Shown here piece after piece: positions 3,810-18,926 of a DNA stretch of 33,543 nucleotides. The DNA is from a virus. A program made the position numbers and the translations under genes. Below the pieces are notes generated by a model, which saw only the letters and a program-made list of their open reading frames with translations, did no database searches and was not told the DNA's origin. Every line of letters begins with the position of its first letter. The stretch's first letter is position 1. Location of the stretch: positions 1 to 33,543 of the IMG/VR virus record IMGVR_UViG_3300023109_000068; one strand, given 5' to 3'.

Positions 3810-4277
3810 TTACTCTGATTCGACGACTTCTTCTTCTGGAAGATCTGAAGGTAAGATGAGCTTATCACTTATACTTAATAGTTCTGAGAATGGCAGGTCT
3901 GAACCAGTGTGAGCATTCGTTCCAACAAACAGTCTTCCAGCACGTTCTAAGACACTGTGATTAGGTAACATCCATGTAGACCATGTGTTGCTTGTTACAA
4001 CTTCCTCTTCATCTGTAATAGTTGAACCTATTAAACCTGAATCAACTTCATCTGATTCTGCATTGATTTCAATAAACAAGGGAAAGTTTTGAACTTCACC
4101 ACCTTTAGAAACAACGAGTTTAGCGTAGTCAAGTGTAAAGAATTCATTTTCGATATTATAAGTAACACTTTCTCCGTTACGCTCTGGATGAACTCCTGCC
4201 ATTATTGAATATAACGCAAGAGGTTGAATTTGTGTATCAGTTTGAAGAACTGACATTGGTATAGTTGCTTTAATCAT
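3810..4277 (-). CDS. Hypothetical protein downstream of the lectin fibre, 155 aa
   Basis: The protein is not recognised. It has no membrane segment or signal peptide and ends in an acidic tail (LPSDLPEEEVVESE). It lies eight bases downstream of the 1042-aa adhesin in the same operon, a common position for a fibre assembly chaperone or a fibre-attached subunit; this is inference from position. The leader before the ATG is A-rich (GTAAATAAAAAA) without a Shine-Dalgarno sequence, and the box there departs from TATAAATA, so it is probably co-transcribed with the adhesin. Confidence 0.6.
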   Translation of the reverse strand: MIKATIPMSVLQTDTQIQPLALYSIMAGVHPERNGESVTYNIENEFFTLDYAKLVVSKGGEVQNFPLFIEINAESDEVDSGLIGSTITDEEEVVTSNTWSTWMLPNHSVLERAGRLFVGTNAHTGSDLPFSELLSISDKLILPSDLPEEEVVESE

Positions 4278-15264: not shown

Positions 15265-16656
15265 TTATCCTTGCCAATATCCACCGCCATAAACACCTGC
15301 TATCGTTTTTGATCTAAGACCACTTTCTCCGATGACATTATACTGCGTATTATTTGGTGCGTTTATTGTGGTGTTTGTTGAAGAAACGTTTGCTGGACCG
15401 GCAGGTCTATTTCCACTACCTCCAAATTCGTTTATACCACGAGTTGCTTCAAGACCTTCTTCCAATTTTTTGATAGATTTAAGTTCCAAATCAACTCTTC
15501 TTTTTGCCGCGTTTGTTTGCGCGTCGAGATCATCGATGAAGTTCTCTGCAGACTCAGGTAAAAGAATCTTTGGGACCTTTTTAAGAAGACCAGTAATTCC
15601 TTGTTGTAAAAATAGGAAGAATGATGCAATTGATAAACCAATTTTCTTTAATGTTATTTTTATCTTATCAAGAGTATCAGCACCAAAAGTGTCCTTTATG
15701 AGTGCACCTAGCATATTAAAAGGAATCATGACAGCCCCAACTATTCCATCCCAAATCTTTTGTAAACCTCCCATCATTTTATCGGTATCCCACGTGAATA
15801 TACCAACTACTAAATCGACTAATCCACCAAAGACATCTTTAACGCTTTGAATAATTACTTCTGTTTGTTTACCTATTTCTTCTGCTATATTATCAAGACC
15901 AAGCCATTCGGCGAGCTTAGTCGGTATCCACGCTAATATACGAAGTAAGCCACCAACCAATCCATCAAACACTTCCATAATCCCCTGCTTGATGCCTTCA
16001 ATTATTCCACCTTCCTCGTAGCCTTTCATAAACCCTTTGACGAAGTCAATTACGCCGAAAAGAATTGTGATTGGTAAAAATATCTTTCCAAGTACTCTTC
16101 CAATACTACTTGCTACCTTCATAATAGACTTAAATGGTCCGGACTTTACAAAATCAGCAATACGCTTAAACACATCAAAAATCTTACTGAATGCCCCGCC
16201 TTTTCCAGCAAAGATCTTACTAATAAATTTATTATTCTTAAAAAAATCACGGATTGGCTTAAACATCTTATCAATCAATTTGCCAAATCCACCTCTCGTA
16301 AGGAAATTTAGTTCAACACCTAACTGGCCAATAAAGGCAAAAAACGTTACGAAAGGAGCCAATAATAAACCGAACCCTATACCTAATAGCTTACTAAGTC
16401 CACCATCTGTCTTAGGTATAAGCGATTTTAAAGCAGAAGACAAACCATCGACTAATGATGTAGAAAGCCCATTGATACCATCAGCAATATCTTGAAATAG
16501 CGACTTTTGCTCAATGTTTTCTTCAAGCTGTTTAAGATCGTTTTTCTTTTGCTCATCGATAAGTTTATCAATGGCCCCTTCTTCGTTGTTTACGATCATG
16601 ACCTTTTGAGTAACATCAGCAAGATCTTTTTTTGTTATGTAATCACCGTCAGGCAT
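15265..16656 (-). CDS. Probable tail tape-measure protein (gp29-like role), 463 aa
   Basis: The protein has long helical stretches and several hydrophobic segments (about 89-117, 189-208, 230-245, 339-363) separated by amphipathic Lys/Phe-rich helices (KMFKPIRDFFKNNKFISKIF). The C-terminus is low-complexity (SSTNTTINAPNNTQYN). This composition is typical of tape-measure proteins, which sit inside the tail tube and fix its length, and it lies in the tail operon region. T4 gp29 is 590 residues, so a somewhat shorter tail would be expected. A late promoter lies five bases upstream. Confidence 0.6.
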   Translation of the reverse strand: MPDGDYITKKDLADVTQKVMIVNNEEGAIDKLIDEQKKNDLKQLEENIEQKSLFQDIADGINGLSTSLVDGLSSALKSLIPKTDGGLSKLLGIGFGLLLAPFVTFFAFIGQLGVELNFLTRGGFGKLIDKMFKPIRDFFKNNKFISKIFAGKGGAFSKIFDVFKRIADFVKSGPFKSIMKVASSIGRVLGKIFLPITILFGVIDFVKGFMKGYEEGGIIEGIKQGIMEVFDGLVGGLLRILAWIPTKLAEWLGLDNIAEEIGKQTEVIIQSVKDVFGGLVDLVVGIFTWDTDKMMGGLQKIWDGIVGAVMIPFNMLGALIKDTFGADTLDKIKITLKKIGLSIASFFLFLQQGITGLLKKVPKILLPESAENFIDDLDAQTNAAKRRVDLELKSIKKLEEGLEATRGINEFGGSGNRPAGPANVSSTNTTINAPNNTQYNVIGESGLRSKTIAGVYGGGYWQG

Positions 16657-16696: not shown

Positions 16697-17344
16697 TTAA
16701 AGTGTACTACGACGTTCATAATTTAATAAATCGTAATCGTTTGAATATCTTTCTTCAATTAATAATCGTGTTTTATTATCAATTTGCGGTTTAGAAAATG
16801 ATCCACTTGAATTTCGGTGGGGTATATCAGGATACACTCGCCCACAATGGTTTTCGATTATCTCTTGACAATTTCCCCAATCATACCTAATGTGTTCAAA
16901 TCTAATTATGTAATTTAATCTATTTAAATCCAAATCAAATGTTTGGGATCTAAAATGTTGATCACATTCCAAACCAGGTCCATCTTTTATTTTGCTAACT
17001 GATTTAATAAACTCATCAAATGACATCTTATGTTTAAACATATTGGGGTGACGACGATCAAATCCTTTATGATATCTCACGCCATTTACTTTGTCTTTCC
17101 AACAACTTATTAAGCGATCTTCTGGGTGACGAGAAAATCCGATGACTAAAGAATTATTAGAGAATTCTTTAGTGTCTAACATCTTCCATTTTAATGATGG
17201 GTTGGACGCAATTTGAGAATGTTTTCGATTATCCTTTTCAAATAATTCAATCAAAAGCCATTTCATTGACGTATTGCATGCCTTACATATCATTTGAAAG
17301 ATAATATTATCTTCTTCAATAAAATAGTTATTAGGATCAGCCAT
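16697..17344 (-). CDS. Sulfotransferase-family protein, 215 aa
   Basis: The layout fits carbohydrate sulfotransferases that use PAPS. A 5'-phosphosulfate loop-like FQMICKACNTSMKWLL lies at about 16-31. The 3'-phosphate site GFSRHPEDRLISCWKDK lies at 69-85, with Arg72, Arg77 and the conserved Ser80. RFEHI follows at 148-152, and a C-terminal YSNDYDLLNY. It would move a sulfate to a sugar or protein hydroxyl in the cytoplasm; the acceptor is unknown. It sits in the reverse tail operon, two bases after the frameshift-encoded gp26 extension and before the tape-measure gene, an unexpected place for a metabolic-type enzyme. Confidence 0.7.
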   Translation of the reverse strand: MADPNNYFIEEDNIIFQMICKACNTSMKWLLIELFEKDNRKHSQIASNPSLKWKMLDTKEFSNNSLVIGFSRHPEDRLISCWKDKVNGVRYHKGFDRRHPNMFKHKMSFDEFIKSVSKIKDGPGLECDQHFRSQTFDLDLNRLNYIIRFEHIRYDWGNCQEIIENHCGRVYPDIPHRNSSGSFSKPQIDNKTRLLIEERYSNDYDLLNYERRSTL

Positions 17345-17346
17345 TT

Positions 17347-17526
17347 TTAGTTTTGTTCAGCTCTTAACTTCTCTTCTTCCAAATGATTCTTTAATAAAGT
17401 TAAATAAATTTCCCTTTCCCACGGTATCATATTATCAAGCTCTGTTAAGCTATATTTGTGATGTTGTAACAAAGAAAACTGGACATAATAATAGTTTTCT
17501 AAGTTATTGTGAGAAAGGCTTATTCG
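17347..17526 (-). CDS. Frameshift-encoded C-terminal domain of gp26, 59 codons without own start
   Basis: After the gp26 stop, the -1 frame continues open to a TAA at 17347-17349. It reads RISLSHNNLENYYYVQFSLL, then QHHKYSLTELDNMIPWERE and a charged helical end. FSLLQHH-YSLTEL--MIPWERE-Y resembles small hub-assembly proteins that follow gp26 in marine T4-like phages and the T half of G/GT tail assembly chaperones. There is no ATG or GTG before the conserved part. The frame is entered exactly by -1 slippage on T TTT TTC at 17526-17532. The product would be a 290-residue gp26 fusion. Confidence 0.65.
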   Translation of the reverse strand, partial: RISLSHNNLENYYYVQFSLLQHHKYSLTELDNMIPWEREIYLTLLKNHLEEEKLRAEQN

Positions 17527-18221
17527 AAAAAATCAGCTAAACCAGCTAATGTTTTCTTATTTGAATGATTACAGTGTGGACATGTATATTCAATGTCATG
17601 CTTAAGAGAAGGGATTGTATTCACCCATTCGTTAATTTTTAGCACCTGCTCAGAACTTAATGAATCAATAAAATCGTTAATCTCTTTTGTTGAAGCTTCA
17701 GAAAACGGATAAACGTTATCTCCATCGAACACACTTTCGATTACAGTAGAAATCGCAGATGTCAAATCATTTGCATTCTTCCCTCTAGCTGATTTTTCAG
17801 CATCCTTTAATCCAGGCTCTTTAAGTATAACACCAATCTCATCAGTTAATTTAATATTGTTGTCATGATTACTTTCGTTAACATTAACATCAATGGCTGA
17901 TAGATCGATTTGAGTCTCCACATATTCATCGCAACCATCGCATTTTACATTAATATCGGATGTTTCACCTACACTTTTTGATCTAATTTGTAGAAGAATG
18001 TACTCAAGGTCATACATCGCCAAATTGTATAGATCAACTTTACCGAATGTACAAGACTTAATTACATCTTTCATAGCTGACAGTAAGCTTGAACTTGTGT
18101 TAGCTTCTTGTGCGATCATTAAGATCTTTTCTTCTTTTACGAGGAATGGTCTAAACTCAACGGTTTCCTTTGTAGATGGAACAGTGAGAGTATACTTTGG
18201 CGTTTCAATTGTTGGTAACAT
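17520..18221 (-). CDS. gp26: Baseplate hub subunit, gp26-like, 233 aa
   Basis: The protein begins MLPTIETPKYTLTVPSTKET followed by VEFRPFLVKEEKILMIAQEA, the start pattern of gp26-like hub proteins in T4-like phages. Two Cys pairs, CDGC (94-97) and CPHC (214-217), probably bind one zinc ion. gp26 takes part in building the central hub of the baseplate. T4 gp26 is 208 residues. The last codons, GAT TTT TTC GAA TAA, contain a perfect -1 slippery heptamer two codons before the stop, so a fraction may be extended into the 17347-17526 frame. Confidence 0.7.
   Translation of the reverse strand: MLPTIETPKYTLTVPSTKETVEFRPFLVKEEKILMIAQEANTSSSLLSAMKDVIKSCTFGKVDLYNLAMYDLEYILLQIRSKSVGETSDINVKCDGCDEYVETQIDLSAIDVNVNESNHDNNIKLTDEIGVILKEPGLKDAEKSARGKNANDLTSAISTVIESVFDGDNVYPFSEASTKEINDFIDSLSSEQVLKINEWVNTIPSLKHDIEYTCPHCNHSNKKTLAGLADFFE
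17526..17532 (-). promoter_or_regulatory. Candidate -1 ribosomal frameshift site (T TTT TTC)
   Basis: Read on the reverse strand in the gp26 frame: the last T of GAT, then TTT TTC. This obeys X XXY YYZ. Slippage puts the ribosome into the open frame that lacks a start codon. Only a weak downstream stem (TTTCT...AGAAA, 11-base loop) was seen as a possible stimulator. Confidence 0.6.
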
Positions 18222-18242: not shown

Positions 18243-18926
18243 TTAGATTAATTTCTTAAAGACTTTAAGTTTGTCTTTAGTACTATTTATTATAGATTTG
18301 ATAGCACCTTCTACGTTGAATGTATCGTACGTCATTACAACATCAATCTTAATTGTTTCGGAAGATGCATTAGATAGTTCAACACTGTTGACACTTACTG
18401 GGAATGCATCCAGAAGTCTAACTCCGTAAATTGGTGTGTTCTTTTGATCAAGTTGTTGAATAAAAACGTCTGTCTTATACTCACTATCATAAGAAACCAT
18501 GTGTGAATCTGGATCAATGATTGATTCCATCCATTTGTCAAAGAATTTTTTTACGTAGTAATCATTTGTGAGTAAAAAACTAAATGTCACATCTTCGTTA
18601 ACGACTGTGTTAGGTTTTTTTCTTGTTGCACGATCATACGGGTCGTAGTCAGTTGTTTGAATAATTCGACCAGGTAGTGAACACGATTCGCATAGAATAT
18701 TGATATCGCGTGGATCATTTACTAATCCACCTAAACTAAATGTCCCACTTAAGGCAGAAGCTGCAGCAGATTGTAGATCCAAATTTAATAGGCTTTGAGT
18801 AGGAGGAGTGATTGTTACTGCAAAACGATTACCTCTTGCAATACCTCCTCTTTTTCCAATCGTGGCCTTTAATTGATCAATCGTAACTGGATTGATTGTA
18901 TTTTTTACGTCATCTATAAGTCCCAT
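18243..18926 (-). CDS. Tail-tube-fold protein (gp19/gp54-like), 227 aa
   Basis: The sequence RGGIARGNRFAVTITPPTQS, then NDPRDINILCESCSLPGRII, then EDVTFSFLLTNDYYVKKFFD matches the T4-type tail tube fold. That fold is used both by the tube protein gp19 and by the tube initiator gp54. Its place beside gp26 and near gp48, among baseplate and tube-initiation genes, favours a gp54-like initiator role over the major tube protein, but I cannot separate the two by eye. It lies 21 bp upstream of gp26 in the same reverse operon. Confidence 0.65.
   Translation of the reverse strand: MGLIDDVKNTINPVTIDQLKATIGKRGGIARGNRFAVTITPPTQSLLNLDLQSAAASALSGTFSLGGLVNDPRDINILCESCSLPGRIIQTTDYDPYDRATRKKPNTVVNEDVTFSFLLTNDYYVKKFFDKWMESIIDPDSHMVSYDSEYKTDVFIQQLDQKNTPIYGVRLLDAFPVSVNSVELSNASSETIKIDVVMTYDTFNVEGAIKSIINSTKDKLKVFKKLI

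Follow-up and report, generated by a model that had tools for sequence, protein, structure and literature searches.

In a marine, T4-like phage represented by an uncultivated contig (IMG/VR record IMGVR_UViG_3300023109_000068, whose 33,543 nucleotides are referred to here as the window), the gene gp26 and the reading frame downstream of it very probably encode a pair of tail assembly chaperones (TAC): a -1 frameshift near the end of gp26 would give a short form of 233 aa (TAC-N) and a long form of 291 aa (TAC-NC). The layout on which this reading is built, a slippery heptamer at the end of gp26 followed by an open -1 frame, had been noticed in a preliminary description of the DNA, and is confirmed as real and far beyond chance. 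That ribosomes slip at this site, the efficiency with which they do so, and the chaperone activity of the products are what we infer from the sequence comparisons below. Frameshifted TACs are already described for T4-like phages, and the window is a further well-supported case.

The slippery heptamer and the -1 extension

All features of this locus lie on the minus strand. The short form (17520..18221, minus strand) comprises a TAC-like N-terminal domain and two CxxC zinc-ribbon-like motifs, and its gene ends GCT GAT TTT TTC GAA TAA. Within this end lies, in the gp26 frame, the heptamer T_TTT_TTC (17526..17532, minus strand), which is of the X_XXY_YYZ type, as the preliminary description had recognized; the spacing given there, two codons before the stop, is to be corrected to the single codon GAA. 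The -1 extension, or TAC-C domain (17347..17526, minus strand), corresponds to the C-terminal part of T4 gp51 and consists of 59 codons, beginning with CGA, and a stop; the -1 frame reads FF-RISLSHNNLENYYYVQFSLLQHHKYSLTELDNMIPWEREIYLTLLKNHLEEEKLRAEQN-stop, with the 59 codons following FF and the stop at 17349..17347. Immediately 5' of the slip the -1 frame of the window carries a TGA. The earlier claim that this frame is open for 59 codons and bears a conserved segment with no start of its own is borne out: no ATG, GTG or TTG lies upstream of the conserved part of the extension in the window, and up to the end of the conserved domain the only start-like codons are a TTG at +50 nt and an ATG at +92 nt (counting from the T that opens the gp26 stop); each lies inside the domain.

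The extension matches phrog_634, 'baseplate hub assembly catalyst' (gp51), with an E-value of 1.6e-25. There is a weak match, too, to the end of phrog_150, the gp26 family, implying that some members of that family carry both parts in one protein. A tblastn search for the extension hit 569 phage records; among the rows inspected, it nearly always lies right against or overlaps a gp26 gene. Over 257 pairs compared in the -1 frame, the mean pS is 0.77 and the mean pN is 0.17 (pN/pS about 0.22), with 3093, 978 and 5488 differences at codon positions 1, 2 and 3, respectively; all 26 relatives keep the -1 frame open, and in none of the 26 is either of the other frames open. The extension thus evolves as protein, and it is in the -1 frame alone that purifying selection acts.

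Conservation of the heptamer among relatives

No isolate phage matched the window in a megablast search. Among 53 distinct viral loci of the first round of searching, every one has an in-frame TTTTTTC or TTTTTTT located 7 or 10 nt 5' of the stop, and every one has the extension in the -1 frame. A homopolymer within a metagenomic contig does raise the thought of a sequencing or assembly error, or of a decayed in-frame fusion gene, but the two-frame layout recurs in these 53 loci and in isolate genomes, and purifying selection on the extension argues against error or decay alike; this explanation is refuted by the relatives that share the layout, and its probability is practically nil.

With named phages and further scans added, an in-frame T_TTT_TTN is present in 254 of the 263 relatives whose gp26 end is intact, corresponding to 58 of 63 clusters at 70% identity and 33 of 37 at 50%. 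Isolates carrying it include members of Kyanoviridae, Emdodecavirus, Pootjesviridae, Schizotequatrovirus and Menderavirus, as well as Xanthomonas phage X1, Pelagibacter phage HTVC008M and Ochrobactrum phage ORM_20. Cultured relatives that share the layout of the window include S-SKS1, P-SSM4 and phiM12. The gp26 stop is shifted by up to 10 codons downstream in some lineages, and the heptamer still stands at the protein junction. Both features for which the preliminary description had proposed a survey of relatives, the heptamer and the missing start, are kept in most of them.

The T-run is kept beyond what codon usage would give: the residue preceding Phe-Phe differs (D, S, N or T), yet the third base of its codon is always T, and the first Phe codon is always TTT, whereas the same genes use TTT for 54% of Phe. 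In 37 of 39 clusters T-TTT is invariant at the same place, for which the naive joint probability, ignoring shared ancestry, is about 6e-21.

This bears on the main alternative, in which the downstream frame is a gp51-like gene in its own right, which ribosomes would reach by coupled re-initiation at the gp26 stop or beyond it; the T-run would then do no more than encode Phe-Phe. Many public records do annotate gp51 as a separate ORF, and in seven phages (phiM9, RL2RES, PVA23, D481, S-CRM01, BUCT608 and phiM12) an ATG coincides with the gp26 stop or closely follows it. Against this alternative, codon usage does not account for the invariant wobble bases of the run, no ATG, GTG or TTG stands ahead of the conserved part in the window and most close relatives, the conserved residues begin directly after Phe-Phe, the phages with the TAATG or TGATG arrangement retain the heptamer as well, and gp51 of the T4 group is a complete fusion of N and C parts (see below). 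We regard separate initiation as very unlikely for the window. Relatives having a proper start codon and no slippery site had been named beforehand as evidence that would tell against frameshifting; some distant groups do have a possible start, but the heptamer is kept there.

Slippage of the RNA polymerase on the T-run, by which a fraction of the mRNAs would be shifted in frame, is slightly less probable still. The run measures 6-8 T, and one locus differs from a near-identical relative by one T within it; however, losing a T shifts the reading in the direction opposite to that needed for the extension, and the commonest form of the site is six T and then a C or G (44 TTTTTTC and 2 TTTTTTG among 58 clusters). 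A run of six T is short for polymerase slippage, and it is an exact fit for tandem tRNA slippage. The locus in question, L268, has five T at position 2249, as against six in the near-identical L267 and BUCT608, and its gp26 end is broken; the missing T probably reflects either a spontaneous variant or a mistake in sequencing.

Departures from the common arrangement

The seven loci in which the heptamer is accompanied by TAATG or TGATG at the stop, or by an ATG immediately past it (L084, L086, L087, L090, L092, L094 and L096) are distant relatives of the window, and independent synthesis of the C-domain is possible in them, judging by the position of the start codon. A different departure is seen in the Ackermannviridae (six inspected) and a related Vibrio phage, in which the -1 extension is kept and a canonical X_XXY_YYZ heptamer is lacking. 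At the stop, all seven of these loci (L093, 3265-3340; L099; and L102-L106) read NTT TTC (ATT, ATC or AAG) TAA, an Ackermannviridae example being GAG ATT TTC ATT TAA.

In T2 and Aeromonas phage 25, gene 51 is separate and encodes 249 aa that match the fusion profile in one frame, a gp26-like N part being followed by an extension-like C part; the profile scores are 50 and 69 bits, and none of 1000 shuffled copies scores above 7.5. The gp26 of T2 retains Phe-Phe as TTC TTT, so that the slippery site is gone, as one would expect were the fusion the working long form, with the T4 relatives making it from a dedicated gene. In the window the C-domain is found only as the -1 extension, and there is no independent gene 51 with its own N-domain. 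A review of T4 morphogenesis (PMC3004832) has gp26 and gp51 as hub assembly chaperones, gp51 being required and absent from the particle. Taken together, these cases suggest a tentative scheme, to which we give somewhat less than even weight, in which the long chaperone of T4-like phages would be made in at least three ways: by frameshifting on T_TTT_TTN (the window and the majority of groups), from a separate, duplicated gene (the T4 group), and by a non-canonical, T7-like slip on NTT TTC (Ackermannviridae).

Identity of gp26 and the tail module

The gp26 protein matches PF12322 with an E-value of 1.4e-60 and 205.1 bits (Pfam gathering cut-off 24.5), and phrog_150 with an E-value of 9.6e-62. 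An AlphaFold2 model of it has a pLDDT of 89. A Foldseek comparison of this model with the PDB gave no significant match, only chance hits, and searching PDB sequences with a profile brought up no relevant relative; with a second aligner, used after Foldseek, residues 1-94 of the model best matched 3FGX (Z 8.2 over 84 residues) and also the HK97 TAC 2OB9 (Z 7.3 over 82 residues), which are moderate Z-scores, the next and unrelated row having Z 2.8.

Directly upstream of the TAC gene is a gene for a tail tube protein (18243..18926, minus strand; phrog_3629, E 1.8e-34). On the other side, beginning 2 nt past the stop of the extension, a sulfotransferase gene (16697..17344, minus strand; PF03567, E 8.4e-13) lies between TAC-C and the gene for a tape-measure-like protein of 463 aa (15265..16656, minus strand), which matches phrog_1535 and other tape-measure families with E-values of 1e-7 to 6e-6. 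The order tube, TAC, tape-measure-like therefore holds in the window, with the one sulfotransferase gene intervening, and the order tube, TAC, tape measure is also found in phiM12, HTVC008M and D481 (the tape-measure product of D481 is unannotated). This Sulfotransfer_2-like gene is present in the relatives L002-L005; L001 has no match to it (around 3873-3926) and is otherwise about 99% identical there, which looks like a recent gain or loss within the tail module.

Because of its place between tube and tape-measure genes, which is usual for TAC genes, and because the model of its N-domain matches 2OB9, gp26 is better taken for a tail assembly chaperone, and less well for a hub subunit. The preliminary description had likened the locus, with a probable tape-measure gene beside it, to the G/GT chaperones of other long-tailed phages, but as an analogue situated in a hub gene; the likeness of layout stands, while the second part does not, gp26 being itself the equivalent of G/GT.

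Stimulatory signals

A possible hairpin with an 8-bp core stem (17467..17506, minus strand) begins 19 nt 3' of the heptamer (z -2.4 for an 81-nt stretch); it is kept only in the nearest relatives, and a role as frameshift stimulator is doubtful. Folding of 37 relatives found no universal downstream hairpin or pseudoknot, the hairpins being mixed and lineage specific: for the 40 nt from +6 the mean z is -1.2, with 13 of 37 below -2 and the window at 0.46. Strong hairpins occur a few nt past the heptamer in the cyanophage loci L083 (2505-2545), L097 and L098, which are outside the lineage of the window. Pairing with the anti-Shine-Dalgarno sequence peaks 6-9 nt 5' of the heptamer, at a G-rich, Shine-Dalgarno-like stretch; this peak is confounded in that it tracks a conserved Gly codon, and it is weak in the window. 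The stimulators of frameshifting seem to differ among lineages.

Proposed mechanism

A gp26 fusion protein of roughly 290 aa, made by -1 frameshifting, had been predicted from the outset, and this prediction (291 aa by our count) is strongly supported by the heptamer, by selection on the extension and by conservation. Most ribosomes would complete gp26 and produce TAC-N. A minority would slip back by one base on T_TTT_TTC, the two Phe tRNAs re-pairing from TTT TTC to TTT TTT, and would pass the gp26 stop to make TAC-NC, with its gp51-type C-domain. If lambda gpG/gpGT is a guide, the task of TAC-N would be to coat the tape-measure protein, and that of TAC-C to bring in tail-tube subunits.

Comparison with known systems

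Public records of cyanophages and their relatives mostly give gp26 and gp51 as two genes, or omit the second. Under the frameshift reading, gp26 ('baseplate hub subunit') would move to the tail assembly chaperone class, as would its companion, which is labelled 'baseplate hub assembly catalyst' or missed, and a -1 frameshift joining the two would correct hundreds of entries. Most T4-like phages would then fall under the rule of a short and a long chaperone that holds for long-tailed phages, with the T4 group as the exception.

Vladimirov, Gautam and Davidson reportedly identified the TACs of T4-like phages in 2022, with frameshifting conserved in several groups and T4 using genes 26 and 51. 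A 2016 review calls G-T frameshifting a conserved trait of long-tailed phages, 'except T4' (PMC5009743). As cited in later papers, Vladimirov et al. (Virology 2022, 566:9-15) found poly-T slippery sequences in T4-like TAC-N genes (PMC12846349), and some T4-like phages have separate short and long genes and no frameshifting (PMC10885494). As these papers cite them, those TACs are like the locus of the window: gp26 is TAC-N, the gp51-type domain is TAC-C, and a poly-T -1 site lies near the 3' end of TAC-N; the window differs in being an uncultivated contig, and in the sulfotransferase gene that splits TAC-C from the tape measure. The gp26 and gp51 of T4 and T2 (PF12322, phrog_150, phrog_634) have homologous domains in the same order, although in T2 and Aeromonas phage 25 gp51 has its own gene with a gp26-like N-domain, and the gp26 of T2 is without the slippery site. 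The TACs of Vandenendeviridae and Andersonviridae (PMC12846349) also depend on a -1 frameshift at a 3'-terminal, T-rich site of TAC-N, but the motif is GTTTTT and the phage families are others.

The slippery site of lambda is G_GGA_AAG. Lambda gpG/gpGT and the locus of the window have in common a short and a long chaperone related by a -1 frameshift and encoded between tube and tape-measure genes; in the window, by contrast, the site is T_TTT_TTC, and the TAC-like domain is followed by a long part bearing the zinc-ribbon-like motifs.
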